Assembly: GCA_027622655.1 (NCBI GenBank)
Contig: JAQBYI010000026.1
Coordinates: forward strand, 1 to 47,201
Direction of reading: 5' to 3'
DNA length: 47,201 nt
From: Gemmatimonadota bacterium
GTDB lineage: Bacteria; Gemmatimonadota; Gemmatimonadetes; Gemmatimonadales; Gemmatimonadaceae
Under the pieces are notes generated by a model, which was not told the DNA's origin, ran no database searches, and saw only the letters and a program-made list of their open reading frames with translations. Numbering within the stretch: position 1 is the stretch's first letter; every line of letters starts with the position of its first letter. Shown here in pieces: positions 10,957 to 25,101 of the stretch. Position numbers and translations under genes: made by a program.

Positions 10957-13722
10957 CTATCGAATGGCGAACGGCAGCAGAGCCACCGGCTCCATCGCCG
11001 TGTTGCCGCTGGCGTTGACACCGAGCACCAGGATCGACGAAGCGATCGGAAGTGCAGCGACCGTTCCATTGATCGCGGCGTACGCAGCAGCACCAGCCAC
11101 CGTGAACGTGTACGAGAACGTACGCACAGCGCCGTTGTCGTTCAGCGCCGCCACGCTCGCCGTACCCACCAGGAACCACTGCGTTCCGGCGACGTTCAGC
11201 ATGTACAGATCCATGCGGCTGAACGGATTGTTGAACAGCGCAGTCGTGCCCGTGACGGTCGCGGTGATCGTCGTGCTCGTCGGGTTGGTGGCGTTAGCCG
11301 CCGCGCCGAGGCCGCTCGTCACACCAACAATCGTCGCCGGAGCCGTCGGCGCCGGGAACGTCTGGAAGCAGAAGCCCGTCGCCGCAGGCGTGGTGCAAGC
11401 TACGTTCGCCTGAAGTGAAATCGGTGCACCCGGGGTCACTACGAGCGGAGCAAATGCACCGGACGTAGCGGCCAGATTGCTCTGGGCGCGCGACGTCGTG
11501 GTGATGCCCGTGATCGGGTTCTGCGTCGTCAGCAGCGTAGCCGGATCCACCTGGATCGCGAGCGGGCTGTTGAGCGCCGAGGTAACGAGGAAGTTCGTGT
11601 TGGAGAACGTCGCGGCATTGAAGCCGTTCACCGGGACGATCGCCTGCTGAATGATGGTCGGAGCAAGCGTCATCGCAGCGTACGTCGTGCCGAACGAGTA
11701 GTCCTGAATGTCCAGGTCTTCGTTGATGAACGCCGACGTCGAGAAGCCCGTGGCGGTCAGTGTGAGCGCTGCCGTCGGGATGCCCGGAGCCGGAGCCGTG
11801 GCGTCGTACACCATCATCGTACGACCGGCGACTGCTACCGAGTTACCAGCGGCGTCAAACGCCGTGGCCGTGTGTGCCCAGTACGCGTGATTCGCCACAC
11901 CCGTCACGGCCGTGAAGGCCGTCGAGTAGAGCGGAGCCGCAGCAGCAACACCTGTGGCCGTTTCGGCCGCGGCTGCAACAGCACCCGTCGCGTTGAACGT
12001 CGTGGTTGTGCCAGCCGAGTTCGCGGCACCAATGGCGCGACGCGAGAGAAGCATGCGAACCGGGCCGGTGGGCAGCATGCCCGAGTTGCCGACGAGGCCT
12101 GTGTCGTTGACCGTCACAATGAACTCACCGGCGACCGTACCGGCCGAAAGACGTGCGGATGCGGCGATGCTGCCCGCCGTGTACGCGATCGTCGGCTGTG
12201 CGATATCCACACCGAGGAGCATGTGGTTCGCGGCGAGTGCTGCCGAGGAAGCCAACACCGTCGGCGAGCAGACCGTCACAGCGGTCGGAAGCGCCGCTTC
12301 GTTGCCGAGAGCATCCTGATATGTGAAGATGCCGCAATAGGCGGAGCTCGTTGCCGAAGGAACCGGCAGCGCGGGCGTGTTGGTTGCCGTTGCGCCACGG
12401 GCTTCCGAAACCGTTCCGGTAGCCGAAGCGGCGATACGAGCCATGCGGACCGTAGTACCAACGCCGCAATCCAAGCCAGCGACGGTGATGCACGCCTTGG
12501 CGGCCGGCGCAATCATGACGCCGTTCGACGTGAGGCTGGTGTTGAGGCTTGTAAGAGTGACCGCGCCGTTGATCCAGCCGTTTGCACGGGAATTCGGATT
12601 CTGAACGAGTGTCGGGACAAGCGGCGCAGCATTGTCGAGGCGGAGCCCCGTAACCGCACCGGCGTTGAGCGGAGCAGCGGCCGCAAACAACGCGTCGCCG
12701 GCACCGTTGACGCCCGTGACCGTCGGCGTCTGCCCGATTGCGTTCGCCGCGCAGGCGACGCCGGCCGCGTCAAACTCATAGCCGTTCACGTTCGTCGCGG
12801 CGGCAGCAGCCGTCTGCGAGAACGTGGCGGTCCACGCGAGTGACGGCGCAACTGGCGCAACCAGCGCGGTTGTGCGCGGGCCAATGCCGGCCGCGTCGCA
12901 AACCAACGTACCGAACGTGGTCGTGCCCGACGCAACCGTTCCGCCCGAATAGCTCACCGGGAGGACCGACACCGTGAGGGCTCCGCGATCGTAGCGGAAT
13001 CCACCGGCGTTGAGCGCGTTGGCCGTCGTGCCGCTCGTCGCGACCGTCGCGTGCCAGCCGTCAACGTTCGCAAACGTAAGCGCCGTCTGGGCCGAGGCTG
13101 AGGCCGAAGACGACGTTGCACCCGTCACGTAAAGCTGCGCCGAAACCGTCTTTGCACCGTTCGTGAACGCCGGAGCGCCCGTCGTGGTGTTGTACGCGGC
13201 CGTGTTCACGCTGAACAGAATCAACGGGAACGCGCTCTGGTTCTCAGCGGCCTCATCGGCAGCGTACCGGAGCGAAGCGGACTGCGCAGCCGTGAACGTC
13301 TGCGAGTCAACGCTAACGCCACCAACGACCAGCACGATCTTGGAGACCGTCTGGTTGCCCGGGGCAACGTTGAGGCGGACGTCAATCGCACCAACGACAG
13401 CGGCCGGAACGACCGTGACGTTGTTCGAACCACCAACCGTGACCGACTGAATCGAGACCGAGGCCGGGATGACCGTCGCAGCCGCCGTAACGGCGACCGA
13501 GGCGCAACCCTGCTTGCCGGTGTCAACCGTCGACGTGGCGCAAACAGCGACGCCAGGCGTCGCGGCATTGGCCGTCGCAACGGCGCCGGACATCGACACC
13601 TTCGACGGATCGCTCGACGTCCAGGTGACCGTCGTGGCAGCGCCATTGCTGGCGTTTACAGCGGCCGAGAACGTCACCGTCTGACCGACATTCATCGTCG
13701 CCGTCGCCGGGGCGACAGACAC
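10957..13722 (-). CDS. Large Ala/Thr-rich Ig-like surface (lipo)protein, start region frameshifted
   Basis: At least 921 residues. The N-terminal part is a BIG2-type Ig-like domain (VNSVSVAPATATMNVGQTVTF, then VTWTSSDPSKVSMSG). The rest is a long, Lys-poor, Ala/Thr/Val/Asn-rich beta-type region with scattered Cys pairs and no recognised enzyme motif. GTG 13722 is only the first standard start in frame. The same frame continues upstream for 39 codons without a stop and encodes a clear lipoprotein signal (VLRFSLVAAVAVVAAAC). That segment should begin at the ATG at 13840, which has a perfect Shine-Dalgarno site, but the ATG is one base out of frame (ATG-T-AAA). The protein is probably an outer-surface lipoprotein; as sequenced, expression of the full form needs a frame correction. 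A terminator follows. Confidence 0.8.
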   Translation of the reverse strand: MSVAPATATMNVGQTVTFSAAVNASNGAATTVTWTSSDPSKVSMSGAVATANAATPGVAVCATSTVDTGKQGCASVAVTAAATVIPASVSIQSVTVGGSNNVTVVPAAVVGAIDVRLNVAPGNQTVSKIVLVVGGVSVDSQTFTAAQSASLRYAADEAAENQSAFPLILFSVNTAAYNTTTGAPAFTNGAKTVSAQLYVTGATSSSASASAQTALTFANVDGWHATVATSGTTANALNAGGFRYDRGALTVSVLPVSYSGGTVASGTTTFGTLVCDAAGIGPRTTALVAPVAPSLAWTATFSQTAAAAATNVNGYEFDAAGVACAANAIGQTPTVTGVNGAGDALFAAAAPLNAGAVTGLRLDNAAPLVPTLVQNPNSRANGWINGAVTLTSLNTSLTSNGVMIAPAAKACITVAGLDCGVGTTVRMARIAASATGTVSEARGATATNTPALPVPSATSSAYCGIFTYQDALGNEAALPTAVTVCSPTVLASSAALAANHMLLGVDIAQPTIAYTAGSIAASARLSAGTVAGEFIVTVNDTGLVGNSGMLPTGPVRMLLSRRAIGAANSAGTTTTFNATGAVAAAAETATGVAAAAPLYSTAFTAVTGVANHAYWAHTATAFDAAGNSVAVAGRTMMVYDATAPAPGIPTAALTLTATGFSTSAFINEDLDIQDYSFGTTYAAMTLAPTIIQQAIVPVNGFNAATFSNTNFLVTSALNSPLAIQVDPATLLTTQNPITGITTTSRAQSNLAATSGAFAPLVVTPGAPISLQANVACTTPAATGFCFQTFPAPTAPATIVGVTSGLGAAANATNPTSTTITATVTGTTALFNNPFSRMDLYMLNVAGTQWFLVGTASVAALNDNGAVRTFSYTFTVAGAAAYAAINGTVAALPIASSILVLGVNASGNTAMEPVALLPFAIR

Positions 13723-13840
13723 GCTGTTGACCGTCGGCGTCGTATCGCCGACCGCTGGGCCGGCAACTGTGACTTTGTCACCGCACGCAGCGGCAACAAC
13801 CGCTACTGCAGCGACAAGAGAAAAACGAAGGACTTTACAT
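13723..13840 (-). pseudogene. Frameshifted lipoprotein signal segment of the Ig-like surface protein
   Basis: The minus strand reads AGGAGGT, AGC, ATG, TAA: the ATG at 13840-13838 is followed at once by a TAA stop. Dropping one T after the ATG would give Met-Lys-Val-Leu and run in frame through a hydrophobic h-region to a lipobox Cys (AAAC) and on into the 921-residue frame. The in-frame version (codon TGT at 13839) has no ATG/GTG/TTG before an upstream TAG. This is a single-base insertion in the genome, or a sequencing/assembly error. Confidence 0.75.
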
Positions 13841-18457: not shown

Positions 18458-20938
18458 GTGCCAGCACCCACGAGCCCGCGAGTCCCAGAAGAGCTGCCGC
18501 TCCTCGCGCTGCGCAGCACGATCGTCTTCCCCCACGGCCGGATCGGCGTGCAGGTCGGGTCTCCCGAAAACATCGCGGTGCTTGAATCGCTCGGCGCATC
18601 GGGCGGCCTCGTCATCGTCGCTGTGGGGACCGGGTCAGGCTCCGTAGACGCTGCCCGACTTGTCAATCGTGTGGGAGTTGTAGCAAGAGTCAGCGACCGC
18701 GTGTCGGCCGGCGCAGAGACCGTTCAGGTGACGCTCCAGGGCATCGCGCGAGCGCGCATTGTTGCAGTTGACCGGGAGAGCCCGTTTTCGGTTGCCCGCG
18801 TTGAGCCGGTAACTGAATCGATGCCAGGTGGCGCTGAAGCGCGCCGCGCAATTGCGCGCATCGTCGCAGCCGCCGATTCGATCGCAGAAGTCGACGAGCG
18901 ATTCCCCGCCGAACTCAGTGGGCTCGTCGCGCGGCACACCGCCGACCCGTCGCGGGCGGCCGACGTCGCTGCCGCTGGAGCCTACATGCGCGTCAGCGAG
19001 CGCGACGAGCTGGTGCAGTGCCTCGATGTTGGCGACCGACTTGTTCGTATTGCCGCGAGACTGGAGAAAGAGGTGGCCCGCGCGCAGGTCATCGGCGAGA
19101 TGGACCGCCGCACGAACGTGAGCGTGGAGCAGCACCAGCGCGAGTTCTTTCTGCGCCAGCAGCTTCAGGCGATTCGCGCGGAGCTCGGCGAGCGCGACCC
19201 TGCGGAATCGGACGCCGACACGATCGTGCGTCAGATCGCGGAGGCGGGGCTTCCGGAGCATGTGGAGCGCGAGGCGCGGCGGGAGACCGACCGGCTGCGT
19301 GCTCTCCCGCCGGCGTCGAGTGAGTATCAGGTCCTCCGGAACTACCTGGAGTGGGTGCTCGCGTTGCCGTGGAGCACGACATCGGGAGCAACGGAGATTC
19401 CGCTCGACCGGGTTGAGGAAGCGCTCGACGAACGGCACTACGGACTCGAGGAGGCCAAGGAGCGGATTCTCGAGTACCTGTCGGTTCGCAAGCTCCTCGG
19501 CGCCGGCGGCCTCGACCCGCATGGGCCCATCCTCTGTTTCGTCGGCCCCCCAGGAACGGGAAAGACATCGCTCGGCGAGGCGATCGCAACGAGTATCGGA
19601 CGTGCCTTCCATCGCATTTCGGTAGGCGGAGTGCGTGACGAGGCCGAGGTGCGCGGGCACCGCCGGACCTACGTCGGTTCCATGCCAGGTCTCATCGTAC
19701 AGGCGATGCGGCGCGCGCAGGCGCGCGATCCCGTGCTGATGATTGACGAGATCGACAAGATGGCCGGCGGCGGACCCGGTGGTGATCCGCTCGCTGCGAT
19801 GCTCGAGGTTCTCGACCCGTCACAGAACGCGACGTTCGTCGATCACTACTTGAACGTGCCGTTCGACCTCTCTCGTGTGCTCTTCATCTGCACGGCCAAC
19901 ACGCTCCTGGCGATTCCCCCCGCGCTCCGCGACCGGATGGAAGTGATCCGCATCGCGGGATACACAGTCGAAGAAAAAGTGGAAATCGCATGGCGCTACC
20001 TGCTTCCGCGGCTGTTTCGCGAGCACGGCATCACGGACCGGGATCTGCAGTTCACCGATGAGTCGCTGTCGACGATTTCGAATCGCTACTCGCGCGAAGC
20101 CGGGCTTCGCGGGTTCGAGCGCAACCTCGCGGCAGTCATGCGGCGGCGCGCGCGTCGAAAGGCGCAAGGCGAGAACGGGGCGTGGGTGGTGGACGCGGCG
20201 CGAATTGATGATGTGCTGGGATCGCCCCGCTACGCAGCCGACGCGGCCGAGATCGAGCCCGAAGTCGGTACGGTCACAGGGCTTGCGTGGACCGCGAACG
20301 GCGGCGAACTGATGACGATCGAGGCGCTTCGCATGCCCGGCACGGGCAAACTCCACGTCACCGGCCAACTCGGCGACGTGATGCGCGAATCCGTTGATGC
20401 TGCCTGCTCGTATGTACGGTCAATGGCACGCGTACTCCGCATTGAAGACCCCGAAATGAAGGCGACTGACCTCCACATCCACTTCCCGGCTGGGTCGGTT
20501 CCGAAGGACGGACCGAGCGCCGGAGTCGCCGTGACGCTCGCGATTGCCAGCGTGATGAGCCGACGTCCGGTGCGGCGCGACGTCGCGGTCACAGGTGAAG
20601 TGACGCTGCGTGGCAAGGTTCTCGAGATAGGCGGTGTGAAGGAAAAAGTGCTCGCGGCCTACCGCTCGGGCCTGCGCGAGGTGCTGATTCCGGTCGCGAA
20701 TGAAAAAGATTTGCGCGGACTTCCCGATGTGGTCCGAGACCAGATGCGATTTACGACCGCGCGTTCGATGGACGACGTGATCGACGTAATGCTGCTCGCA
20801 CCGCTGTCGATCACGCGCGATGCGGACCGCCCGACGGACGAGGGACCCCGCTCGGAACCCGGCACTGCATTTCGCGACGAACCGGCCAAGTTGCCTGACG
20901 ACGCGCCCACGCAGAACGACGACGCGTGGCCGGCGTGA
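18458..20938 (+). CDS. lon: ATP-dependent Lon protease
   Basis: About 826 residues in standard Lon order. The N-terminal substrate-binding domain starts LPLLALRSTIVFPHG. A coiled region follows (EQHQREFFLRQQLQAIRAELGE), then the AAA+ module with Walker A GPPGTGKTSLG (about 363) and Walker B LMIDEIDK. The C-terminal protease domain has the Ser-Lys dyad: Ser about 687 in PKDGPSAG and Lys about 728 in GGVKEK. It degrades misfolded and regulatory proteins in the cytoplasm. A Pro/Asp-rich tail of about 35 residues follows the protease core. GTG 18458 has AGG 9 bases upstream; TTG 18449 is the alternative. The 3' end overlaps the DUF445 gene, suggesting coupling. The palindrome at 18380-18414 lies upstream and might regulate it. 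Confidence 0.96.
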   Translation: MPAPTSPRVPEELPLLALRSTIVFPHGRIGVQVGSPENIAVLESLGASGGLVIVAVGTGSGSVDAARLVNRVGVVARVSDRVSAGAETVQVTLQGIARARIVAVDRESPFSVARVEPVTESMPGGAEARRAIARIVAAADSIAEVDERFPAELSGLVARHTADPSRAADVAAAGAYMRVSERDELVQCLDVGDRLVRIAARLEKEVARAQVIGEMDRRTNVSVEQHQREFFLRQQLQAIRAELGERDPAESDADTIVRQIAEAGLPEHVEREARRETDRLRALPPASSEYQVLRNYLEWVLALPWSTTSGATEIPLDRVEEALDERHYGLEEAKERILEYLSVRKLLGAGGLDPHGPILCFVGPPGTGKTSLGEAIATSIGRAFHRISVGGVRDEAEVRGHRRTYVGSMPGLIVQAMRRAQARDPVLMIDEIDKMAGGGPGGDPLAAMLEVLDPSQNATFVDHYLNVPFDLSRVLFICTANTLLAIPPALRDRMEVIRIAGYTVEEKVEIAWRYLLPRLFREHGITDRDLQFTDESLSTISNRYSREAGLRGFERNLAAVMRRRARRKAQGENGAWVVDAARIDDVLGSPRYAADAAEIEPEVGTVTGLAWTANGGELMTIEALRMPGTGKLHVTGQLGDVMRESVDAACSYVRSMARVLRIEDPEMKATDLHIHFPAGSVPKDGPSAGVAVTLAIASVMSRRPVRRDVAVTGEVTLRGKVLEIGGVKEKVLAAYRSGLREVLIPVANEKDLRGLPDVVRDQMRFTTARSMDDVIDVMLLAPLSITRDADRPTDEGPRSEPGTAFRDEPAKLPDDAPTQNDDAWPA

Positions 20939-22038
20939 CCGGCATTTGGGCAGAGCTCGCCGCCAGCATCGCTGTGGGAACCATTGCCGGCGGCGTCACG
21001 AATGCCGTCGCCGTTTGGATGCTGTTTCATCCACACGACAAGCGATTCGGATTCCACGGCGCGATCCCGAAGAACAAGGCACGCCTGGCCAAGAGCATCG
21101 GACGCACCGTCGGTGAGCGCCTCCTCACGGCGAACGACATCGTGCACGAGCTGCACACGGCCGGGTTGCGCAGCACGATGGATTCGAAACTGGAGGCCTT
21201 CTTTGCGACCCTGCTCGAGCGTGAATGGGGCCCGCTCGGAACGCTCCTCCCGGAGGCAGTAGCCACCGAGGTGGAGCGCTCGCTGGGCGCGCTGGGAAAG
21301 CCGGTGGCCGAGGCCTGGACTACGGAAGTGAACTCTGATGCATTCGCCGACCGCGTCCGTGCCCTCATCACGCGCGTACGCGGCGAGTTGGCGTTCGTTC
21401 CCGTTGGCGCAGTGCTAACTCCAGAAAGGCGGGCAGAACTCGCCGCGCAGGCCGCGGACCTCGCTGAGCAGGTGATCAACGAGAGCCGCAAGGACGACGA
21501 CCGCTCGGCGCGCTCGCGGCTCGGCGACATCGTGCTGCGCATTGCCGGCGCCGACCGGACGCGTGCGTTCGTTGAACGGACAGTGCACGACGCGCTGGGC
21601 AAGGCTGAGTCGCGAACGTGGGGCGAACTGCTCGCACCAGTCAGCGACGAGGAAATGGTTCGTTGGGTTCTGGATGCCGTGCGCTCACCGCGTGCGGCGC
21701 AGCTCGCCGCCGGAGCTGCAGGTGGTGCGGCCCGCGCGGTTCTCGAGAAGCCGATCGGGCGGCTCGGGCGGTGGCTACCGGAAGACGCAGCGAATCGCAT
21801 GGCTTCGGTGGCGTCGCCGGCACTCTGGGACTGGTTGGTCGCTCAGGTTCCGGGCTTCCTCGAAACGCTGGACGTCGAGGGAATGGTCGAGCGAAAGGTG
21901 CTGGGGTTCAGCACGCAGCGCGTCGAAGAACTGGTGCGCAAGGTGACGCAGCGAGAGCTCGACGTGATTGTGTACCTGGGCTATCTGCTTGGGGCAATCA
22001 TCGGGCTCACCACATTCGCGGTGGGAAGGGTGTTCTGA
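20926..22038 (+). CDS. DUF445 family membrane protein
   Basis: 370 residues. The DUF445 signature is the N-terminal membrane segment with VGTIAGGVTNAVAVWMLFHP followed by HGAIPKNKARLAKSIG. A long charged helical middle (LTPERRAELAAQAADLAEQVI) and a C-terminal membrane anchor (VIVYLGYLLGAIIGLTTFAV) complete it. This matches YheB/YjiN-like proteins, which have no settled function. GTG 20926 overlaps lon by 13 bases; GTG 20935 would give a GTGA overlap and is equally likely. Converges end-to-end with the DUF2135-like gene at 22039 with no gap. Confidence 0.85.
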   Translation: MAGVTGIWAELAASIAVGTIAGGVTNAVAVWMLFHPHDKRFGFHGAIPKNKARLAKSIGRTVGERLLTANDIVHELHTAGLRSTMDSKLEAFFATLLEREWGPLGTLLPEAVATEVERSLGALGKPVAEAWTTEVNSDAFADRVRALITRVRGELAFVPVGAVLTPERRAELAAQAADLAEQVINESRKDDDRSARSRLGDIVLRIAGADRTRAFVERTVHDALGKAESRTWGELLAPVSDEEMVRWVLDAVRSPRAAQLAAGAAGGAARAVLEKPIGRLGRWLPEDAANRMASVASPALWDWLVAQVPGFLETLDVEGMVERKVLGFSTQRVEELVRKVTQRELDVIVYLGYLLGAIIGLTTFAVGRVF

Positions 22039-22779
22039 TCAGTAGGTAAACGGAGTAATGATTTTCCCGCTCCCCTTTCCACCACCATCGCCGGCGCCCG
22101 TGAACACGCCCGTGAACACCTGAGGCAGCTTCCCGCGCGTGTTGACCGTCACGACATACTTGGTCTGAACCGCCGAGCAGTTTGACCAATAGTCCACGCG
22201 CACGACGTACTCGCCGCGCGGCGCGATGAGACCGCTCCCCCAGAACACGTTTTCGGCGCGCGGCCCGTCTGCGCTGCATCCCGCGTTGGAATCGAGATCA
22301 AGTTGCCCGCCGGAAACGGCAGTCTTGTGAGCCCAGTAGATCTCTTCACCAAGCGGATCGACTACATGCAGATCCACATCGGCGGGTGAATCCCAGGTGA
22401 TGTTGACCTGAACGTCGCCGGTACCGACTGAAATGATGCTGATTGGCGCATTCTGGATGGCGCCGTACGTGCCACCGCTCGAGCCGGCGAGGTGCATCTG
22501 AAACACGGGCACCGGCACGACCTGACTGAACACGATCAGAATCTCCGCAGACGTTGTGGCACCGGGAAGCGTGAGTTCCCAGAAGTCATCCAGACCTGGA
22601 ATGGCAACGGCGACCTTGGTAAACGGCGTCGCGGACGACGCGGTGACCTGGATCGTGCCGCCAAGGAGGATCAATTCGGGAATCGGAGCAGTGACGATCG
22701 GATTGCCGCCCGATATCTCCGGCGCACCGGTGCGAAGAACTGCGCGCGCGTCGCCGCTCACTGTCTCGACGGCGGACAC
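22039..22779 (-). CDS. DUF2135/YfaP-like surface lipoprotein, body after an in-frame TGA
   Basis: At least 246 residues from GTG 22779. The N-terminal part is a beta-rich domain; the C-terminal half resembles DUF2135/YfaP (VNITWDSPADVDLHVVDPLGEEIYW, then GGQLDLDSNAGC, a GPRAENVFWG block and GEYVVRVDYWSNC), likely secreted or surface-exposed, with two Cys that could pair. The tail is Gly/Lys-rich. The same frame extends upstream to an ATG with a strong Shine-Dalgarno site and a lipoprotein signal, but a TGA at 22824-22822 interrupts it. Starting at GTG 22779 would leave the protein without an export signal. It is the last of four same-strand genes after the RNA methyltransferase, prepilin peptidase and metalloprotease. 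Confidence 0.7.
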   Translation of the reverse strand: MSAVETVSGDARAVLRTGAPEISGGNPIVTAPIPELILLGGTIQVTASSATPFTKVAVAIPGLDDFWELTLPGATTSAEILIVFSQVVPVPVFQMHLAGSSGGTYGAIQNAPISIISVGTGDVQVNITWDSPADVDLHVVDPLGEEIYWAHKTAVSGGQLDLDSNAGCSADGPRAENVFWGSGLIAPRGEYVVRVDYWSNCSAVQTKYVVTVNTRGKLPQVFTGVFTGAGDGGGKGSGKIITPFTY

Positions 22780-22923
22780 ATAGTTGACGATGGTTGGTAG
22801 TTTGGTGGCGAGCGTCTGCTCTCATTCGATGCATGCGCTGACGCCTGCGAGCGCGCCGACCACGAGTGCCGGGAGCCAGAGTCGCGCATTGATCTTCAGG
22901 AAATGTTTTACACCCTTGGTCAT
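22780..22923 (-). pseudogene. Lipoprotein signal segment cut off by in-frame TGA
   Basis: ATG at 22923 with GGGAGGAG upstream opens a 33-codon frame encoding a basic n-region, a hydrophobic core and the lipobox GVSAC (Cys31), then Ile-Glu and TGA (22824-22822). After the TGA the identical frame continues as EQTLATKLPTIVNYV into the 246-residue body. One nonsense change, or a base-call error, therefore separates signal and body. No sign of selenocysteine use is seen. Confidence 0.75.
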
Positions 22924-22936
22924 CCGCTCCTCCCGA

Positions 22937-24268
22937 CTACCGTGCAGGCGCCACCTTCACCTTGGACACATCGATCAACTTCGTGGACGCACCGACCGGT
23001 ACGTCCGTGTACACCACCGCCGGATATCCCTGAATGGTCGCGGTGGAGACTTCACCCGTTCGCCCCTTGGCCGCGAACCGCAGGACCGACCCCGAGCCTC
23101 CGGCCCCCTCATCGAGTTCAAATCGCTTTTCGATCGACTGCACCAGCACAAACCGGAACTCTGCAGCTTCGATCGCCGAATCCCATACGGACACCCAGGT
23201 GATACCTGCACCGCGCGGCGTGTTGACGACCGCGTAGCGATCGCCCCCCCAGCCCGCAGCCGCACGAGATGTCGTCTCGACATTTCTCAGCTGCTGGTGC
23301 AGCATCAACCGAATCTCGAACTCACCAAGACCGTTCTCATAAACCAACGTACCGGCAGACGGTCTCGGAAACGTGACCGCAAGCGGAACGTCGAGCGAAT
23401 CAAGCAATCGCTCGGGATGCATCACCTGCTCGGTGGACATGGGCACAAACCCGAGCACCGACTGTCTCGGCCGCTTTTCCTTGAACTGCCGCATGAACTC
23501 CGCACCACTCAGGTACGGAAACAGCAACACCTCCTGGATGAACATCGGCGCCGAACCAAGCACCGGCATTGCCCCCTGGGAGTCGCGAATCATCTGACGA
23601 ACCCGATCCCATCCGCCGGGCATGCGAGTGAACATGTTGCCGCCGCCCAGCATTACGCCCAACTGCTCGTACGTGGCCTGCCCTTCCACCAGCGCCTGCA
23701 CTGCCATGGTACGGTCGTTATCCGACTGCGACTTCATAACCGAATCGAGCGACAGGTATTGATCCTGCAGCGCGTGCACGAGTTCGTGCGTGATGGTGAT
23801 GTTGAGCGCGGCCGGCTCCGGACTCCCGGGGCCGCCGGTGACCACATAGAGGACTTTTGTGGAGGGGTCGTAGTAACCGACCACCTGCTCTGAGAGGAGG
23901 GCGAGGAGATAAGCACGCAGGTCGAGCGTATCCGGCAGGAGTCCGAACAGCTTGTACGCCTGCTCCTCGCCGGCGAGTTGGAGCGCCGGCTGAGCCTCAT
24001 CGAACTTGGCCTGGAGAAACTCGAGAAGCTCCGATCGCGTCCGGGTTTCGAGCTTCGGGGGTGTCTTGAACGTGAGTCCCGTAGCGGATTCGACCTGGGG
24101 AATCGCGCGGGCGACTTCGCGGCCGTACGGTCCGGGAAGGGCCGGCGGCTCACCCTGACACGCGTCAAGTAGCGGCACCCCAGTGAGGCCGATGATGACA
24201 GATAGCACGACCCGGCCGCGGCGAGTCATTCGCGAGGCCTTCTTTGGAGGAAGCGGTCGGTCATTCAT
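22937..24268 (-). CDS. HExxH metalloprotease-like lipoprotein, function unknown
   Basis: 443 residues. The N-terminus has a basic region, a hydrophobic core and Cys in LLDAC, a plausible though atypical lipobox. The centre has NITITHELVHALQDQY, a gluzincin-type HExxH motif, followed about 30 residues later by VEGQATYEQLG, whose Glu is a candidate third zinc ligand. I do not recognise a named family. The rest is mixed alpha/beta without further motifs. ATG 24268 follows prepilin peptidase by 11 bases, and the DUF2135-like lipoprotein starts 13 bases after its stop, so the three are probably one transcript. Longer upstream frame (to 24844) runs through the peptidase gene and is not coding. Confidence 0.78.
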   Translation of the reverse strand: MNDRPLPPKKASRMTRRGRVVLSVIIGLTGVPLLDACQGEPPALPGPYGREVARAIPQVESATGLTFKTPPKLETRTRSELLEFLQAKFDEAQPALQLAGEEQAYKLFGLLPDTLDLRAYLLALLSEQVVGYYDPSTKVLYVVTGGPGSPEPAALNITITHELVHALQDQYLSLDSVMKSQSDNDRTMAVQALVEGQATYEQLGVMLGGGNMFTRMPGGWDRVRQMIRDSQGAMPVLGSAPMFIQEVLLFPYLSGAEFMRQFKEKRPRQSVLGFVPMSTEQVMHPERLLDSLDVPLAVTFPRPSAGTLVYENGLGEFEIRLMLHQQLRNVETTSRAAAGWGGDRYAVVNTPRGAGITWVSVWDSAIEAAEFRFVLVQSIEKRFELDEGAGGSGSVLRFAAKGRTGEVSTATIQGYPAVVYTDVPVGASTKLIDVSKVKVAPAR

Positions 24269-24279
24269 TGGGCAGGGCG

Positions 24280-25101
24280 TCACCCGGTGAGGCGGCCAAT
24301 GTACCAGCCCAGCAGCGCATCGCCCCAAAGCAAAGCGACCAGTGCGGCGGGCGCAAGGAAAACTCCGAACGGCACAAGCGGCGCGGCGAATGTCTCCCCT
24401 TTCGCCTTCGCACGCATCCATCCGATCGGCATGACGAACACGAGAAACGCGACGGCGCCGATCGCCGCCGCAAGCAGAACCGTCAGGAGTGCGCGTCCCG
24501 GCCCGAGCGCCGCGCCCGCCATCGCCATGAGCGTGGAATCGCCGAATCCCATCGCTTCCTTTTTCAGCGCCACTTCGCCGAGCCAGCCCACGATCGTGAT
24601 GGCTCCGGCGCCAACGCAGGCACCAAAGAGCGCGTCGATCGGTCCCGCGAACGGGTACTGCGAGCCGGTGAACGCACCGACCACGCTCATCACGCCGACG
24701 AAGAAGAGCCCGGTAACGGTAAAACCGTCCGGGATGACGTATGCGCGAAGGTCGGTGATTGCCACGCCAATCAGAATCGAAACGAATACTCCAAGGCGCA
24801 GGGCGAGCAGCGTTGGCCCGGCCCAGTAGACGGCAGCGACCCACGCCGCGCCGGTCAACGCTTCAACCGCCGGATACATCGCAGAGATCGGCTGCCCGCA
24901 CGTTCGACACTTTCCGCGGAGCACGAACCAGGAAACGACGGGCACGTTGTCGTACCAAGCCAGCGTATTGCTGCACTTCGGGCACCGCGACCGCGGGCGC
25001 ACCACGGATTCGTCCGCCGGCCAGCGGAGGATGCAGACGTTCAGGAACGAACCAACGCTCGCGCCCACGAAGAACACAAAAAAGGCCAGGGCGATGCTCA
25101 T
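24280..25101 (-). CDS. Type IV prepilin peptidase/N-methyltransferase
   Basis: 273 residues, PilD-type (family A24). The N-terminal segment VGASVGSFLNVCILRWP and the cytoplasmic zinc-binding loop with two CxxC pairs (RCPKCSNTLAWYDNVPVVSW and GKCRTCGQPIS) belong to the bifunctional, methylating form. The catalytic aspartates are in AITDLRAYVIPD and the GxGD-like MGFGDSTLMA. About seven or eight membrane spans. It cleaves prepilin leaders and methylates the new N-terminus. No pilin or assembly ATPase is in the window. ATG 25101 overlaps the RNA methyltransferase stop by 4 bases. Confidence 0.93.
   Translation of the reverse strand: MSIALAFFVFFVGASVGSFLNVCILRWPADESVVRPRSRCPKCSNTLAWYDNVPVVSWFVLRGKCRTCGQPISAMYPAVEALTGAAWVAAVYWAGPTLLALRLGVFVSILIGVAITDLRAYVIPDGFTVTGLFFVGVMSVVGAFTGSQYPFAGPIDALFGACVGAGAITIVGWLGEVALKKEAMGFGDSTLMAMAGAALGPGRALLTVLLAAAIGAVAFLVFVMPIGWMRAKAKGETFAAPLVPFGVFLAPAALVALLWGDALLGWYIGRLTG

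Follow-up and report, generated by a model that had tools for sequence, protein, structure and literature searches.

A conserved tryptophan codon replaced by TGA in a lipoprotein gene of a Gemmatimonadota bacterium: a probable young nonsense allele at a repeatedly reduced locus

Young bacterial pseudogenes can arise through a single nonsense mutation, and decay of genes has been reported for Shigella. At the level of translation, tRNA-Trp misreads UGA to some degree. UGA can also be read by those bacterial variants of tRNA-Trp(CCA) whose anticodon stem has 4 bp (PMC13092985). Here we describe an in-frame TGA at a conserved Trp codon of a predicted lipoprotein gene, found in a stretch of 47,201 nt from a Gemmatimonadota bacterium (hereafter the window; its source assembly is termed the window genome), and compare it with these systems.

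On the minus strand of the window, a Shine-Dalgarno-like sequence (GGGAGGAG, 22927–22934) lies immediately behind the stop codon of an upstream peptidase gene (22939–22937) and precedes an ATG (22923–22921) that opens the frame MTKGVKHFLKINARLWLPALVVGALAGVSACIE, which ends in VSACIE and is followed by TGA at 22824–22822. This short open frame (22822–22923) thus consists of 33 codons, specifying a signal peptide, the lipobox V-S-A-C, Ile and Glu, and of TGA as codon 34. The remainder of the frame (22039–22821) is without further lesions, with 260 open codons (22821–22042) and its own TGA (22041–22039). In a motif scan, the basic n-region, hydrophobic core, lipobox and Cys expected of a lipoprotein handled by Sec and signal peptidase II were all present, and the lipobox region is kept in relatives of the gene. 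The initial annotation, which had placed, without naming a strand, a signal, a lipobox, a TGA after Cys-Ile-Glu and an onward reading in the same frame at these coordinates, is borne out by the sequence; the continuation is also beyond chance, as the read-through frame aligns over its full length, signal peptide included, with congeners. When both strands were scanned with a motif of our own making, this was the sole case in the window in which a stop separates a short lipobox-bearing frame from the long frame behind it.

The upstream neighbor (22937–24214, minus strand, start approximate) encodes a metalloprotease-like protein with the motif HELVH, read from sequence. A convergent gene on the plus strand (20926–22038) encodes a DUF445 protein, and its stop codon lies directly next to the stop codon of the lipoprotein gene. 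Gene order suggests that the lipoprotein gene is the last of a minus-strand operon. The peptidase lies within a longer ORF (22937–24844, minus strand, 635 aa), of which the ∼200 upstream codons are an out-of-frame shadow of a prepilin peptidase gene (24280–25101). This shadow part (24215–24844, minus strand) is an annotation trap and gives rise to spurious stops in the matches of relatives.

The protein read through the stop has matches in 15 of the 61 genomes searched (the window genome, 17 congeners, 19 genomes of the family and 24 of the order), with a best congener identity of 69%, and a second search of the genus matched 13 of its 18 genomes. Codon comparison covered 15 loci, including that of the window; four lack the Cys-Ile-Glu motif and were left unscored, as G013 and G015 read CVRY there, and G025 and G008 are unaligned at this point. 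In all 10 relatives that keep the motif (nine congeners and the outgroup G029), the position of the stop is occupied by TGG, encoding Trp. Because TGG is conserved in every scoreable relative, the lesion is, by sequence comparison, a single G-to-A transition (TGG to TGA) in a conserved Trp codon of a conserved gene. The earlier proposal of an inactivated exported lipoprotein finds support in this comparison, to the extent that a Trp codon shared by 10/10 scoreable relatives now reads TGA.

The identity of the body was less fully sustained. It had been described as DUF2135-like, and the window protein does match DUF2135 (PF09906), but only weakly, at 14.0–14.3 bits against a Pfam gathering cut-off of 22. 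In a scan of 12 family members (E up to 1), DUF2135 (in four) and PPC (PF04151; in six) were the commonest Pfam matches, and in this respect the lipoprotein family resembles both, whereas the window protein itself has no PPC match at an E of 1. Searches of Pfam and NCBIfam gave no match above cut-off for the window protein, a sequence search of solved structures yielded nothing above chance level, the matches being to fusion constructs, and a Foldseek search with a poor model (mean pLDDT 62.4, built from four sequences) returned nothing at E 0.001 or better, its weaker matches being set aside because of the model's quality. The term DUF2135 was absent from the papers of the literature collection searched. 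Viral contigs, when scanned, yielded no relative; separately, a phage family of unknown function (phrog_1735) matches residues 168–266 (∼22126–22422, minus strand; 3.8e-15), and the C-terminal domain of the lipoprotein seems, from this similarity, to occur in phage proteins too. A deltaproteobacterial MAG and the actinomycete Virgisporangium also have homologues of the body, at 44–46% identity. Of the 43 genomes searched that belong to the family (19) or the order (24), however, only two have one, which makes the distribution patchy.

Eight of the 18 genomes of the genus have a full-length gene (G004, G005, G006, G007, G010, G012, G016, and G017), one has a divergent but open copy (G013), and in nine the gene is stopped, reduced or absent. 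These nine comprise two genomes with one in-frame stop (TGA in the window genome; TAA at codon 43 of the mature part in G001), one with an internal deletion (G015), one with a remnant of ∼41 codons (G008), four with a stub made up of signal peptide, lipobox and short tail (G002, G009, G011, and G014), and one in which the lipoprotein gene and the peptidase are both absent (G003, which the 635-aa query matches in the shadow part only). G001 is a second species of the genus, with its own, different single stop and a remaining frame that is likewise intact. In the peptidase tree (17 rows, to which G003 contributes none), the four stub genomes group together (100/100), while the two stop-bearing genomes are separate, that of the window pairing with the intact G004 (98/94). 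Counting G013 as open, this gives at least five separate reductions: in the window genome, G001, G008, the stub clade and G015. Some of the genomes are incomplete (G010 is at 61%), and all scored reductions retain the neighboring gene, save for the absence in G003. In all 16 congeners that have this peptidase neighbor, its matched part is free of stops. An earlier hint of repeated surface-protein loss is therefore upheld at the level of the genus for the lipoprotein gene, across 18 genomes.

The age of the lesion was approached through the conservation of the body. Invariant columns of the 264-column mature part were defined on nine congener copies (eight uninterrupted, plus G001) and scored by leave-one-out. 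The window copy departs at 3 of 109 such columns, the stop included; the nine congener copies depart at 0–4 each (of 106–110), whereas G029, the outgroup, departs at 27 of 106. There is thus no excess of deviations in the window copy over the nine congener copies that would indicate relaxed constraint. GC3 of the body (0.727) falls within the range of eight other gene stretches measured (0.683–0.785). As the body is conserved like the other congener copies, the lesion is either recent or a consensus error, and the lack of a second stop in the body only bounds its age to less than ∼0.14 neutral changes per site. A body without measurable relaxation would be seen just as readily if the stop were a sequence error, or if the gene were still expressed through readthrough.

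With its observed stop, conserved Trp codon, intact remainder of the frame and repeated loss across the genus, we regard this locus as a recently inactivated nonsense allele (a young pseudogene) of a dispensable lipoprotein gene, a reading that we hold to be probable, with the lesion most likely real. Under this reading, the G-to-A transition would have hit the Trp codon three residues past the Cys that would be lipidated, and translation would stop after 33 codons, leaving a signal peptide and a Cys-Ile-Glu stub. The remaining 261 residues would go unmade, save for background misreading of UGA; the stop would be real in the cells and the protein absent. Selection on the gene may be weak or intermittent, and its loss may have been helped by the terminal position in the operon, as this position permits loss without a polar effect. 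Phase-like loss, which had also been suggested, finds no support for this gene: the lesion exchanges one base in sequence that is not repetitive, and neither a slippage tract nor an invertible repeat was visible there when judged by eye.

An alternative that we consider unlikely is an artefact of consensus or of a minority allele, whereby the stop in the draft assembly would be absent from most cells. The genome is a draft of 115 contigs with 4.2% estimated contamination, the remaining frame is conserved like intact copies, and a second single-event lesion occurs within the same 47-kb window, all of which would fit such an error. The second lesion affects a lipoprotein with a Big_2 domain (10957–13840, minus strand; lipobox VAAACGDK), in which one extra base after the ATG (13840–13838) places TAA directly behind the start; this base is absent in all five congeners found by motif among 10 stretches scanned. 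The initial annotation had mentioned another inactivated lipoprotein in the window and had given no location for it; this gene is a candidate, and probably the one intended. Its lesion could reflect real decay or an imperfect consensus. Against an artefact in the gene studied here, only 65 of the 2340 single changes possible in the 260-codon body create a stop, so that one stop made by error would imply many other errors. Furthermore, 58 domain matches elsewhere in the genome (45 ABC_tran and 13 Plug) are without an internal stop, a weak test that spans ∼19 kb by our own estimate and in which frameshifted copies would show merely as shortened matches. The window genome is also not the only member of the genus in which the lipoprotein gene is broken or reduced, other cases having arisen independently.

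A further reading, which we judge to be quite improbable, is that the exported body is lost from this locus time and again, whereas a lipid-anchored N-terminal stub is retained and is itself functional. If true, the TGA of the window would be an early step toward, or an overshoot of, truncation of the stub type; one possible driver would be selection against a body that is exposed at the surface as a target of phage or grazers. The four stub loci lie behind the peptidase gene and encode a signal peptide, a lipobox, Cys-x-x-Trp-Asp-Pro and a short tail that enters the antisense of the end of the DUF445 gene; the Trp lost in the window is retained in all four (CVHW, CVRW, CVQW, and CRQW). Over 36 codons around the lipobox, silent changes are proportionally more frequent than replacement changes in the pairs G009–G011 (pS 0.366, pN 0.095, P 0.005), G014–G002 (pS 0.571, pN 0.315, P 0.027) and G009–G002 (pS 0.488, pN 0.189, P 0.003; all one-sided Fisher tests), these being three of six pairs with shared rows, without correction for multiple tests and with counts rounded to whole numbers. 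The N-terminal stub may perhaps be under selection in this clade, to judge from these sequences, and as the tree leaves the branching order inside the clade open, the pairs are not certainly independent. The inference of selection is weakened by silent divergence between G009 and G011 that is far higher in the stub (0.50) than in the peptidase (0.089), an excess that suggests recombination or misalignment.

Productive readthrough, in which tRNA-Trp misreads UGA, inserts Trp and supports low-level expression of the lipoprotein, appears to us very improbable. In its favor, tRNA-Trp would insert exactly the residue that was lost, such that background misreading would yield the ancestral protein in trace amounts, and the body looks constrained. 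The tRNA-Trp(CCA) types that read UGA in PMC13092985 have a 4-bp anticodon stem; the one tRNA-Trp found in the window genome (anticodon CCA) has a fully paired stem of 5 bp (CCGGT/ACCGG), which makes that type inapplicable. No tRNA-Trp(UCA) was found with patterns that require exact matches and that an unusual tRNA could escape, the UCA pattern having matched only three places, namely tRNA-Sec and two that ARAGORN did not call as tRNA. The window genome also encodes RF2 (490 bits, cut-off 370), and TGA is the terminal stop in eight of the nine congener orthologues examined (TAG in the ninth) as well as in the window gene itself. In-frame TGA was noticed in the true frame of no other window gene, in a survey sorted by eye that covered the stretches with homologues in 14 congener stretches (the left end of the window, above all, lies outside this coverage) and in which many of the stops recorded preceded a gene start or fell within a shadow frame. 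With RF2 present, an ordinary tRNA-Trp(CCA) and no structure behind the TGA, programmed readthrough of UGA, as raised initially, is not supported. A genetic code in which UGA means Trp was likewise rejected, given the ordinary stem of tRNA-Trp(CCA), the retention of RF2, and the finding of neither a tRNA-Trp(UCA) by the exact-match patterns nor a further in-frame UGA in the stretches surveyed.

It is extremely unlikely that the true gene begins at GTG 22779 and has a cytoplasmic product: no ORF downstream of the TGA is longer when counted from start to stop, but no Shine-Dalgarno-like sequence lies ahead of this one, and homology to signal-peptide-bearing relatives takes in codons before as well as after the TGA and extends upstream through the signal peptide, for which reasons this start was rejected.

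Insertion of selenocysteine at the TGA (22824–22822), considered since the genome encodes a tRNA-Sec (79.2 bits, cut-off 47; contig C101, 10230–10322) and a SelB scoring over its cut-off (contig C16), has next to no chance of being correct, as the 10 scoreable relatives have Trp and never Cys at this position and the RNA behind the TGA is as unstructured as shuffled sequences, with no bSECIS-type structure beyond them (z 0.13 over 49 nt; z 0.58 over 67 nt). As an observation in its own right, tRNA-Sec and SelB probably enable this genome to recode UGA at other sites.

The combination of a stop at a conserved Trp codon and a selenocysteine system calls for caution, as it may mislead automatic annotators, which could take the downstream ORF for a cytoplasmic protein or suspect recoding. 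By itself the single lesion is an ordinary nonsense allele. The recurrent loss of the lipoprotein beside a stable peptidase offers, on a small scale, a natural experiment in how surface proteins fare when selection on them is weak or fluctuates.

In comparison with known systems, the locus shares with young nonsense pseudogenes a single stop, an intact and conserved frame, intact orthologues and repeated independent loss. It differs from the young pseudogenes of host-restricted pathogens in that it belongs to the draft genome of an uncultured bacterium. With codes in which UGA means Trp, and with the readthrough by 4-bp-stem tRNA-Trp described in PMC13092985, the likeness consists of a UGA at a conserved Trp; here, in contrast, tRNA-Trp(CCA) has an ordinary 5-bp stem, RF2 is present, and UGA terminates.
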